Part shown: positions 13,330-16,380 of the stretch, piece after piece
How the letters are laid out: every line of letters begins with the position of its first letter
Position numbering within the stretch: position 1 is the first letter of the stretch
Source of the DNA: an uncultured Synergistales bacterium
GTDB taxonomy: Bacteria; Synergistota; Synergistia; Synergistales; Aminobacteriaceae
Direction: 5' to 3'
Length of the DNA stretch: 34,357 nucleotides
Assembly (NCBI GenBank): GCA_905233725.1
Contig: CAJOEM010000015.1
Location: forward strand, 1 to 34,357
Translations under genes and position numbers: made by a program
Notes under the pieces: model-generated
The model's database searches: none
What the model was told of the DNA's origin: nothing
The model's input: only the letters and a program-made list of their open reading frames with translations

Positions 13330-14702
13330 TATTCACATCGCCGGTTTTCGTATTGTTCTTTCTCGCAGTATTTTTCGTGACGTTGGCAATTCAGAAATTC
13401 GCGAATGACAGAGCAAAATATATTTTCCTGTTAAGTGCGAGCTATTTTTTCTATGGCTGGTGGGATTGGAGATTTTGTTTCCTGCTGTTATTCGTTACGT
13501 TGATGTCGTATGTTACGGCTATGAACTCTCGAAAGAAATTCGCGTATATTCTCGGAGTCGCGATCCCGTTAATCGTTCTGGGGATTTTCAAGTACTGCAA
13601 TTTCTTCCTGGATTCGCTTGCGTTGCTGACCGGTCGTGAATTTATGAGCTTGCAAATAATTCTGCCGGTTGGGATTTCGTTCTACACGTTTCAGGCGTTG
13701 AGCTATGTTATAGACGTTCACCGTGGGAAAATTCCTGTTGAAAGAGATTTCGTGAAACTCGCGTTATATATCAGCTTTTTTCCACAGTTAGTCGCCGGAC
13801 CGATTGTCAGAGCTTCGGATTTTCTGCCGCAATTAAACGAGTCCGGGCGAAAAATTACGCTTCAGAATTTCACGATTGGCGTGCAGATTATAGCGATGGG
13901 ATTTTTCAAGAAGATTGTGCTTGCGGATCATATTTCGGTTTTTGTTGACGATGTGTTTCGTGTGCCAGTTGCGTTTCATTGGGCGACGATAATTCTAGCG
14001 GTCGTGTCGTATTCGTTGCAGATATATTTCGATTTCTCGGGTTACTCGGATATAGCGACGGGTTGCGCAAAATGTTTGGGCTATGATTTCGTTATGAATT
14101 TCAATTTGCCTTATATTTCGCGAAGTGTTACGGAATTTTGGAGACGCTGGCATATTTCGCTGTCTGGTTGGCTGCGAGATTACCTGTACATTCCGATTGG
14201 CGGCAACAGGCTTGGTAAATTTCGGCAGCTTGTGAATATCATGATTACCATGTTGCTTGGGGGATTATGGCACGGTGCGAATTGGACGTTTGTATTCTGG
14301 GGAGGATTGAATGGCTTGGCGTTGTGTCTTGAGAAAATTTTCGCGCGTAAAAAATCTGCTCCAGGAAATTTCGTTACGTTTAGCTTTATCTCGTTCACAT
14401 GGATATTTTTCAGGGCAGAGAATTTTGTCAAGGCATGGCAAGTCATCACAGGAATATTCACGTTTCAGGACGGAATCTCGCAGCCGTTTTTCTGGTCATT
14501 CTTCGCGATTGTGATTCTGGCAGTTTCGCAAATCGTCGCAACCGTGAAATCCCGCCGTGAAAATTCGAGCGTCGTAACAGGATTTTGCCCAATCATGAAT
14601 CTCAACACAATCACAGGCTTAACAACATTTTTTGTATTCGTCGGGATAATTCTGGGACTTGCGTTCACTGGTGAGAATCCGTTCGTGTATTTCCAGTTTT
14701 GA
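13326..14702 (+). CDS. MBOAT family O-acyltransferase (AlgI/DltB type)
   Basis: The 458-residue polytopic membrane protein has the full MBOAT core: YFDFSGYSDIATG (234-246), EFWRRWHISLSGWLRDYLYI (270-289, with H276) and LGGLWHGANWTF (311-322), where H316 is the predicted catalytic histidine. AlgI, PatA and DltB use an acyl donor on the cytoplasmic side and pass the group outwards to a polymer or carrier. The start codon overlaps the stop of the SGNH gene (ATGA), showing translational coupling and joint function. No glycosyltransferase or alginate genes are adjacent, so the acceptor polymer is unknown; the TagO/WecB/CapA products about 6 kb away are one possibility. Confidence 0.9.
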   Translation: MIFTSPVFVLFFLAVFFVTLAIQKFANDRAKYIFLLSASYFFYGWWDWRFCFLLLFVTLMSYVTAMNSRKKFAYILGVAIPLIVLGIFKYCNFFLDSLALLTGREFMSLQIILPVGISFYTFQALSYVIDVHRGKIPVERDFVKLALYISFFPQLVAGPIVRASDFLPQLNESGRKITLQNFTIGVQIIAMGFFKKIVLADHISVFVDDVFRVPVAFHWATIILAVVSYSLQIYFDFSGYSDIATGCAKCLGYDFVMNFNLPYISRSVTEFWRRWHISLSGWLRDYLYIPIGGNRLGKFRQLVNIMITMLLGGLWHGANWTFVFWGGLNGLALCLEKIFARKKSAPGNFVTFSFISFTWIFFRAENFVKAWQVITGIFTFQDGISQPFFWSFFAIVILAVSQIVATVKSRRENSSVVTGFCPIMNLNTITGLTTFFVFVGIILGLAFTGENPFVYFQF

Positions 14703-14852
14703 TATATAAATTAAAGGTGGGCTGACACCTAAAAAATCCGAAATACTCGCCGAACATATGTGTCGGTCGTTGGCAGTCAACAGAAAAAACTGTGTTCTTG
14801 CCGGATATTTTTGCCGGTGGCTGGCGGACAGCAGAAAAATCAGTCACTCATC
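14703..14852. repeat. Gene-free segment with two imperfect direct repeats
   Basis: No convincing gene is present. A copy of about 29 nt starting at 14761 (TGTCGGTCGTTGGC, then CAGAAAAA) recurs at about 14812 (TGCCGGTGGCTGGC, then CAGAAAAA) with roughly 23 of 29 positions equal. GCCGG also occurs on both sides of ATATTTTT at 14799-14816. A small hairpin AGGTG/CACCT lies at 14715-14730. The composition is unlike the flanking genes. It could be a unit of a dispersed repeat family. Confidence 0.45.
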
Positions 14853-14893
14853 AAAGGGGAGTATAGTACACTGTGGTGTATTTGCTCCCTTTT
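14853..14893. terminator. Strong stem-loop, possible bidirectional terminator
   Basis: AAAGGGGAGTA (14853-14863) pairs with TGCTCCCTTTT (14883-14893) over 11 bp with G-T pairs. An inner TACAC/GTGTA stem is closed by a TGTG loop. A-rich and T-rich arms allow termination in both directions. It may end the MBOAT transcript or be part of the neighbouring repeat element. Confidence 0.55.
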
Positions 14894-14913
14894 GAAATTT
14901 CAGGAGGATTAAT

Positions 14914-15220
14914 GTGCCAAAATGGTTGGTAATTACGGTTCAGGTAAATCTTTTTTATGGACGGAAAAATTAGCAGGCACCGTACATGATATGCCTGCAT
15001 GGGATTTATTAGAGAAAATAATTATTACATTCCTAATACTGCACTTAGAGAAGATATTAGAGATATAACGTCGCAGCTTCCCAGTAGGATTCTTGCAATT
15101 TTCAGAAAAGCTACAACTCAAAAATTATATTGCTCAAAACCATGTTATGCAGCAAAGAATGTTGATATTTCGTCCATATTGCAAACAAACGATCTGAGAC
15201 AAAAATTCGAACAGACTTAG
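14914..15220 (+). pseudogene. Frameshifted remnant of a small gene with a P-loop-like N terminus
   Basis: AGGAGG (14902-14907) precedes GTG 14914 at good spacing, but that frame closes after 19 codons. The next frame, opening at ATG 14922, reads MVGNYGSGKSFL, a Walker A-like GxxGxGKS, and stops after 48 codons. A third frame from about 14999 to the TAG at 15220 has 73 codons, including EDIRDITSQLPSRIL. Restoring one A in the AAAA run near 14920 would join the ribosome site to the P-loop frame. A second shift near 15015 would join the last frame, giving about 95-100 residues. Codons such as AGA, ATA and TTA are common, unlike the neighbours. The end overlaps the argD stop on the other strand. 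I cannot assign a family. Confidence 0.4.
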
Positions 15221-16380
15221 CAGGCTTTCGCGATAATTTCCGCAGCTTTCTGCAATAATTCCAACGGTGTGTTAATCGGCGGTAAAAGTCTGATTCTGTC
15301 CTTGGCTGTCAGAGCTAAAACCCCGTTCTTGATGCATTCGTCTACAACTTCGCGCGCAGGTTTCGTAGGTTTCAGACCGATCATCAAGCCCATTCCAGTG
15401 ACTTGTTCGATATTTGACTGCTTCGAGAAATATTCGTGCAAAATTCTCCCGTTCTCGCGGACTTGCGCTAATAATTCGTCGCTGATTCTTGAGAGAATAT
15501 TACACGCTCCTGCACACACAACAGGATTTCCTCCAAATGTCGAGCCGTTATCACCGTGTCCGAAAACATCCTGAACTTTCTCGCTGAGTAACGTTGCCCC
15601 GATTGGCAGTCCTCCGCCCAAACCCTTAGCTGTTGAGATAATATCCGGCTGCAAATCGTAGTTCATGTACGCGAATAATTTTCCGGTGCGTCCGTTTCCA
15701 GTTTGAACTTCATCAACGCCGAGCAAAATATTTTTCTCACGCACGAAATTTTTTAGCTCATCGACGTAATTTTTTTCGAGCGCAATCACTCCGCCTTCGC
15801 CCTGAATACACTCGATTATAACGGCTGCGATTTTTGTTTTTGCTGCGAGTTCTTCGAGTTCGGAAATATTCCCTGCTTCGACATGAGCAAATCCCGGCGT
15901 TAATGGCTGGTATAACTCGTGATAATGATCCTGACCGGTTGCTGCGAGTGCTGTTAGAGTTCGTCCGTGAAAACTGTTCTTGAGCGTAACGATTGTGAAA
16001 TATTCTGAGCCACGAGTTTCTGCTGCAAATTTTCTCGCGACTTTGAACATGCATTCGTTTGCTTCAGCTCCGGAATTTGAGAAGAACGTTTTTGCGAGAC
16101 CGGATTTTTCACTAAGCATTTTCGCAAGTTTTACGCACGGTTCGTTGTAATAGAGATTCGACGTGTGCTGAATTTTCCCGAGTTGTTCGATTACCGCGGA
16201 TTTCCATTCGGCATCATTTGCACCGAAAAGATTCACGCCAATTCCGCTGCCCATGTCGATATATTCTTTGCCGTCAGAATCTTTCAAGAGCGAGCCATTC
16301 CCTGAAACTAGCGCGATTTTGTAACGGTCATAAGTATTTGCTATGTATTGCGAATCTAATTCCTGAAGATTATTATTCAT
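15217..16380 (-). CDS. argD: Acetylornithine/succinyldiaminopimelate-type aminotransferase
   Basis: The 387-residue fold-type I class III PLP aminotransferase probably converts N-acetylglutamate semialdehyde to N-acetylornithine. Landmarks are SNSGAEANE (101-109), FHGRT (137-141), the PLP-phosphate region IECIQGEGG (189-197), GVDEVQTGNGRTGKLFA with D223 (221-237), and the Schiff-base lysine K252 in STAKGLGGG. ATG 16380 is preceded by AAGGAG at a 6-nt spacing; a longer in-frame reading to 16428 has no ribosome site. No other arginine genes are nearby, so related omega-aminotransferase substrates cannot be excluded. It is divergent from ruvX. Confidence 0.88.
   Translation of the reverse strand: MNNNLQELDSQYIANTYDRYKIALVSGNGSLLKDSDGKEYIDMGSGIGVNLFGANDAEWKSAVIEQLGKIQHTSNLYYNEPCVKLAKMLSEKSGLAKTFFSNSGAEANECMFKVARKFAAETRGSEYFTIVTLKNSFHGRTLTALAATGQDHYHELYQPLTPGFAHVEAGNISELEELAAKTKIAAVIIECIQGEGGVIALEKNYVDELKNFVREKNILLGVDEVQTGNGRTGKLFAYMNYDLQPDIISTAKGLGGGLPIGATLLSEKVQDVFGHGDNGSTFGGNPVVCAGACNILSRISDELLAQVRENGRILHEYFSKQSNIEQVTGMGLMIGLKPTKPAREVVDECIKNGVLALTAKDRIRLLPPINTPLELLQKAAEIIAKAC

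Follow-up and report, generated by a model that had tools for sequence, protein, structure and literature searches.

A truncated PBECR4 gene behind a conserved pseudoknotted RNA in a Synergistales genome: probable relic of an RNA-antitoxin module

The window analyzed here is the whole stretch of 34,357 nucleotides from an uncultured Synergistales bacterium (contig CAJOEM010000015.1, forward strand). The region of interest, 14912-15220, lies between an MBOAT-family gene and a class III aminotransferase gene, the latter presumably argD-like. The initial annotation had noted a ribosome-binding site followed by overlapping short frames of low GC content, and had read them as the possible remains of a decayed ATPase gene. 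The sequence elements were as described. AGGAGG is present at 14902-14907 with an ATG at 14912, and the overlapping frames, including the one with MVGNYGSGKS from 14922, can be seen in the sequence. The ATG at 14912 opens a frame of only six codons, and the stop codon of the last frame (15218-15220) overlaps the opposite-strand aminotransferase frame at its end. The GC content of 14912-15220 is 34.6%, compared to 43.5% in the MBOAT gene and 44.2% in the aminotransferase gene, and none of the 309-base segments taken at 50-base steps was as GC-poor (minimum, 35.0%). We found that the decay and truncation of a gene were correctly recognized and that the identification as an ATPase was not. The range considered was also too narrow: the informative part lies directly upstream (14716-14895), where a conserved RNA and a terminator-like hairpin had been overlooked. 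The features of the locus are as follows.

14716-14845, + strand: class A RNA core with three hairpins, two inner stems and three pseudoknots (match to model R1, 6.7e-20; the window sequence is one of those used to build R1)
14716-14729, + strand: hairpin H1, with loop 14720-14725 (GGCTGA) pairing with tail 3 (structure model)
14737-14740, + strand: tail 1 (TCCG), partner of loop 3 (structure model)
14749-14767, + strand: inner stem S1, 14749-14753 with 14763-14767 (structure model)
14769-14781, + strand: hairpin H2, with loop bases 14774-14777 (CAGT) pairing with tail 2 (structure model)
14789-14792, + strand: tail 2 (ACTG) (structure model)
14800-14818, + strand: inner stem S2, 14800-14804 with 14814-14818 (structure model)
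14820-14832, + strand: hairpin H3, with loop bases 14825-14828 (CGGA) pairing with tail 1 (structure model)
14840-14845, + strand: tail 3 (TCAGTC), partner of loop 1 (structure model)
14851-14895, + strand: terminator-like hairpin between the RNA and the gene (-26.2 kcal/mol, z -7.63, 0 of 200 shuffles as low)
14902-14907, + strand: ribosome-binding site AGGAGG of the former putative toxin gene (seen in the sequence)
14913-14981, + strand: first piece of the putative toxin remnant, in the frame of MVGNYGSGKS, from codon 105 of the G017 gene; end approximate (comparison with G017)
14990-15220, + strand: second piece of the remnant, in a different frame, with its stop at 15218-15220; start approximate (59% identity to G017 over 71 residues)

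When 99 related genomes and the genome itself were searched at the protein level, one relative was found, in G017, a genome of the same genus. The intact relative in G017 has 205 residues and matches PBECR4 (PF18813) at 6.5e-34, with 118.4 bits compared to a curated cut-off of 27. PBECR domains are described in the available part of PMC5512222 as predicted BECR-fold RNases of phages. The two pieces in the window match residues of about 105-129 and 129-202 of the G017 protein, and the frame at 14999-15217, with its 59% identity, aligns to part of a stop-free open frame, which bears out the decay. The first tblastn piece begins at residue 93, but its beginning falls within the leader. Judged by these alignments, the stretch 14913-15217 represents the C-terminal half of a PBECR4 gene, whose product is a predicted BECR-fold RNase, and the window copy is a remnant and not a working member of the family. 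By itself the remnant scores 15.7 bits against PF18813, below the cut-off, and H50, which is invariant in 35 relatives, falls in the half that is missing.

Two defects separate the window copy from the G017 gene. The first 104 codons are absent, the start region being joined directly to codon 105, and the frame changes between the two remaining pieces. Because of this deletion and frameshift, the putative toxin cannot be made from the window copy. The proposed repair of the frames by two single-base changes would not give back a whole protein, because, compared to G017, the first 104 codons would still be missing. The evidence supports both suggestions, an acquisition scar and the truncated end of a larger gene: the segment is an AT-rich C-terminal remnant, and the protein search found a relative in one of 42 genomes of the same genus and in none of 57 others. 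No relatives were seen in which the same frames are kept as separate small genes. Among 29 aminotransferase (argD) loci from the same genus, none shared the window's neighbors, and thus there was no insertion scar or empty site by which to date the window copy.

The reading of MVGNYGSGKS as a P-loop was ruled out by alignment. The string aligns with MVGVYDHTKS, MIGDFTDAGP, MMGNFNNSHP and others, so that at the position of GSGKS the relatives carry DHTKS, NNSHP, TDAGP and similar sequences. A Walker A motif was found in 0 of 35 relatives, and we regard the string in the window as a chance one.

All 35 relatives matched the PBECR4 profile; most of them had been found with that model. ToxN was not among the eight Pfam families listed for the relatives. 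A sequence search of the PDB gave no match, and a profile search gave only two ribosomal proteins (E 0.2 and 0.65), taken as chance. An AlphaFold2 model built from five sequences (pLDDT 72.8, pTM 0.73) had no match at E 0.001 or better in a fold search, and hence no reliable solved relative, whether with the MazF-like core of ToxN and CptN or with another fold. In a second-look fold search the RNase toxin BrnT came first, with a Z of 2.5 that is too weak to count. ToxN, AbiQ and CptN were absent among the fold matches listed, an absence that proves nothing. There was no match in PADLOC, a single weak and unrelated match in NCBIfam, and only weak matches to families of unknown function in PHROGs. 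Searching plasmid DNA with the window stretch gave nothing beyond short matches at E 0.5, and tblastn of plasmids with two relatives gave no match. Phage tblastn gave one record with the G017 protein as query and three, two of them partial, with a phage protein as query. Two scans of viral contigs found no relative, and later scans gave one and two loci.

Five broken PBECR4 copies (the window, L146, L124, L110 and L193) retain the RNA and a C-terminal piece. In the window, L146, L124 and L110 the gene resumes at a residue of about 100-112, a low-confidence stretch of the predicted model. The broken copies at L146 and L110 are open in frame.

The RNA upstream of the gene is repetitive, with units 51 nt apart in both the window and G017. 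A perfect repeat motif occurs twice in the window genome and twice in G017, with the same 51-base spacing, and nowhere else in those two genomes; at L035 the RNA has a repeat with a period of 83 nt that is exact over 91 nt. Apart from tRNAs, no Rfam family matched the window's RNA, and the covariance model of the drum RNA (RF02958) had no match up to E 5 on 14600-15250. Between the window and G017, identity is 84.3% (107/127) in the RNA at 14716-14845, 68.3% in the terminator, 68.0% in the gene remnant and 47.3% in the 80 bases before the RNA.

In the class A model there are three hairpins (H1-H3), with an A-rich stretch and then a short tail after each and an inner stem between units. The loop of H2 pairs with the tail of its own unit; the molecule is closed by the outer units, in which loop 1 pairs with tail 3 and loop 3 with tail 1. 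In the window RNA all pseudoknot pairs stand, one as G-U. We evaluated the model with an alignment (A3) of 22 of the 28 class A leaders, all 28 having been chosen by eye from upstream sequences. The omitted leaders were L024 (a near-duplicate), L035, L069, L071 and L072 (other unit lengths) and L070 (two units). Across the 22 sequences, all 88 cells of loop 3 and tail 1 were paired, four different pair sets occurring there; the count was 87 of 88 for loop 2 and tail 2 and 129 of 132 for loop 1 and tail 3. Over all 36 pairs, 93.6% of cells were paired, and 29 of the 36 had changes on both sides. None of 500 shuffles reached the observed value on any of five measures. When the partners were slid by one to three columns, at most 50.1% of cells were paired and the covariation score was at most 0.120, compared to the observed 0.412. 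The inner stems were the weakest helices (82.6% and 78.2% paired). An alternative pairing of tail 1 with loop 2 and tail 2 with loop 3 was at chance and was rejected.

Because the structure had been drawn from these 22 sequences, ten further sequences were checked. They were found with a model without pseudoknots, and some are closely related to the first set. In these, the pseudoknot cells were paired at 39/40, 39/40 and 55/60, compared to 33/40 and 25/40 for the alternatives. The loop 1-tail 3 count at L146 is lowered because L146 has a fourth unit. Misses beyond L146 were in L136, L141, L145 and L154, all without a match to a PBECR4-like protein; L135, L140 and L142 also have no such match, yet have no pairing miss. 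On the basis of covariation, the RNA is probably pseudoknotted as in type III antitoxins. In a leader-peptide test, the lengths of the RNA cores fell in all three classes modulo 3 (13, 6 and 3 of 22). A stop-free frame was present in 5 of the 22, including that of the window, and a leader peptide may exist at single loci.

At L070 (G398) and L155 (G217) the class A RNA is one unit short, apparently by recombination between repeats. The outer loop-tail pairing is retained at both, judged by eye.

A pattern scan for terminators did not list the hairpin at 14851-14895. With a folding test, in which a hairpin must beat all 20 of its shuffles, a strong hairpin was found within the last 120 nt before the gene at 46 of 54 PBECR4 loci, compared to 9 of 33 control ORFs drawn from 18 loci. 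This test, with its controls, replaced an earlier and laxer terminator scan (34/54, with 13.2 expected). The eight loci that failed included G017's own (L006) and the phage locus L030; taken alone, the G017 hairpin has a z of -3.35. These hairpins are predicted to form an intrinsic terminator between the RNA and the putative toxin gene, a type III trait. On the + strand before the window RNA we found no sigma-70-like site, and G017 has one with 10 of 12 matches before its RNA, although such scans prove little. Because no promoter was seen there, the window copy, its RNA included, may be unexpressed, or transcription may reach it from the upstream gene.

The same layout recurs in other genomes. 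Leaders like that of G017 also stand before PBECR4 genes of other Synergistota, of an Erysipelothrix phage, of Lachnospiraceae and, as a copy with a frameshift, of Butyrivibrio fibrisolvens. By eye, promoter-like boxes come first, followed by the RNA, the terminator hairpin, the ribosome site and finally the gene. In 185 Synergistota genomes, the class A model was found in five; PBECR4 is downstream in four and the fifth is the window's. PF18813 was found in seven of the 185, of which three are without class A (L034 has drum, and two are near contig starts).

A larger sample came from the family to which Lachnospiraceae bacterium C10 belongs: among 397 genomes of this family, PBECR4 occurred at 96 places (72 genomes), class A RNA at 44 (38 genomes) and drum at 42 (35 genomes). 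The layout count covered 85 of the 96 PBECR4 places, the 11 weakest being left out. At the 61 near-full-length places, the RNA just upstream was class A at 20, drum at 24 and neither at 17; the left-out places in G260 and G307, near full length with neither RNA, would join the 17. Most of the 17 have other hairpin leaders, by eye. Inspection by eye gave no clear case of a near-full-length PBECR4 gene without a structured leader; the place in G511 runs into a contig end, and the hairpin test was negative at L094, L099 and L100. A PBECR4 match within 520 nt was not entered for 22 of the 44 class A places. Several of these 22 have clear remnants (L144, L146 and L155), and the RNA in G467 was counted as lacking PBECR4 because its remnant was among the places left out. 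A high frequency of RNAs without the putative toxin gene would be expected if the toxin must be lost first.

Several individual loci were also observed. Viral contigs L161 and L162 carry class A RNA and PBECR4, and viral contig L160 carries a PBECR4-like gene with a leader that is drum-like by eye. In Erysipelothrix phage phi1605 (L030), the class A RNA-PBECR4 unit, annotated only as a hypothetical protein, has a type III restriction gene on one side and a site-specific recombinase on the other, the latter separated from it by one small gene. At L157 (G258) and L158 (G562), a complete RNA-PBECR4 pair is faced, at a distance of about 2 kb, by a lone class A RNA that precedes an unrelated gene. 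At L154, the class A RNA is followed, in place of PBECR4, by what appears by eye to be a RelB/PIN-type toxin-antitoxin pair.

The drum RNA, which was reportedly first described in Weinberg 2017, has PBECR4 14-142 bases downstream on the same strand at 30 of its 42 places. At the other 12 there was no PBECR4 match, although a C-terminal half is present at one of these and short pieces at another. No PBECR4-like protein match was seen in the stretch analyzed at L106-L109, L111-L115 and L117, with L106 cut at the contig end; these places may represent lone drum RNAs or drum with other partners. There are, by eye, at least three further leader types before PBECR4 genes (L067, L068 and L081; L087, L088 and L091; L098, L104, L118 and L121), one further type having repeated hairpins whose loops seemingly pair with their own tails. 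A sub-threshold antisense match in Rfam at L023 (E 0.46) was taken as chance, as were several other sub-threshold Rfam matches.

The window locus is a dead copy in which the RNA core has been kept and the putative toxin gene gutted. We estimate a probability of roughly 80% that, in an intact module, the structured RNA binds and blocks a PBECR4 RNase made by read-through of a leaky terminator, with the window being a toxin-dead copy of this module. A promoter would drive a short structured RNA, and read-through of the leaky terminator that follows it would yield a small amount of mRNA for the PBECR4-domain RNase. The three-hairpin RNA, closed by the loop 1-tail 3, loop 2-tail 2 and loop 3-tail 1 pairings, would bind and block the RNase, and the A-rich linkers are possible sites at which the RNase might cut to release RNA units. 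The assignment of the PBECR4 protein as an RNase toxin, and of the RNA as its inhibitor, is by analogy to type III systems.

We think there is a slightly better than even chance that the locus is a plain pseudogene and that the adjoining RNA is a fossil without a present function. The toxin has been destroyed, the + strand before the RNA is without a promoter-like site, and within the genus the class A RNA is found only in the window genome and G017. Against this, the RNA core has kept more identity to G017 than the remnant (84.3% and 68.0%, respectively), and every pseudoknot pair stands. This conservation is still compatible with a fossil, because recent decay explains it as well as retention does; the RNA may have been kept for use as an orphan antitoxin, or the decayed copy may simply be young.

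In a different view, the leader does not bind the PBECR4 protein at all but regulates its gene in cis, in the manner of an attenuator or a riboswitch. Its position as a 5' leader next to a terminator hairpin is attenuator-like. A cis regulator would leave unexplained the 22 of 44 class A places without a PBECR4 match within 520 nt and the lone copies before unrelated genes (L157 and L158), and the available parts of PMC5086642 and PMC4627078 treat the combination of repeated units and loop-tail pseudoknots as characteristic of type III systems. We therefore consider cis regulation unlikely. It is very improbable that misassembly caused the breaks and that the organism has an intact gene: the source is a 57-contig draft, but the copy has two distinct defects, including the loss of 104 codons, the locus is at low GC as one unit, and the same half is lost in copies elsewhere (L146, L124 and L110). 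Finally, despite the presence of a start codon and a ribosome site, there is next to no chance that the frames are genuine small genes, one encoding a P-loop protein, given the six-codon frame from 14912, the alignment of the pieces to separate parts of one longer protein, and the lack of the motif in all 35 relatives.

Returning to the reading in which the RNA blocks a PBECR4 RNase, a wider proposal is that PBECR4 RNases are the toxins of a widespread and unnamed RNA-antitoxin superfamily in Bacillota, Synergistota and phages. Several unrelated RNA folds (the closed three-hairpin RNA, drum and at least three leader types seen by eye) would serve as antitoxins, and lone RNAs would give immunity to incoming copies. 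We judge this proposal to be about as likely as not. In the literature searched, which covered few subscription papers, we found no report of PBECR4 in a type III toxin role and noticed no link of PBECR or drum to RNA antitoxins; the name PBECR4 was not found, and the drum RNA was named as a structure example. What seemed to be a throw-away pseudogene becomes a lead on a group of RNA-controlled RNases, and the orphan RNA family drum gains a likely job. The pseudoknot architecture makes a specific prediction, since the covariation indicates which paired changes should break and then restore activity. Were a second toxin family to be established, it would point to more than one origin of the RNA-antitoxin strategy.

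Type III toxin-antitoxin systems are presented in the available part of PMC5086642 as few in kind and relevant to phage defence, with a layout of repeat RNA, terminator and RNase gene and a pseudoknotted antitoxin. The layout predicted for the locus described here is shared by ToxIN, CptIN and TenpIN: a repetitive pseudoknotted RNA and an intrinsic terminator followed by an RNase gene (PMC5086642 and PMC4627078, from the parts available). Unlike in those systems, the protein here is PBECR4, with ToxN not among the Pfam families listed, and the first and last units of the class A RNA pair mutually, only the middle unit pairing with itself. Beyond these classical families, AbiF, with its RCd22 or abiF-motif RNA, is a functional parallel in that a structured ncRNA is encoded with a toxic protein, as is predicted here. 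For AbiF and RCd22, the available part of PMC12373285 reports that the RNA binds the protein directly and neutralizes it both in cis and in trans. This system differs in having another protein family (Abi_2) and another RNA. The PBECR domains of phage polyvalent proteins belong to the same predicted RNase clade, and solo phage versions are mentioned; the available text of that account mentions no RNA partner (PMC5512222). The drum RNA (RF02958) and the window RNA are alike in that both types are located just upstream of PBECR4 genes, although the window has no drum match.
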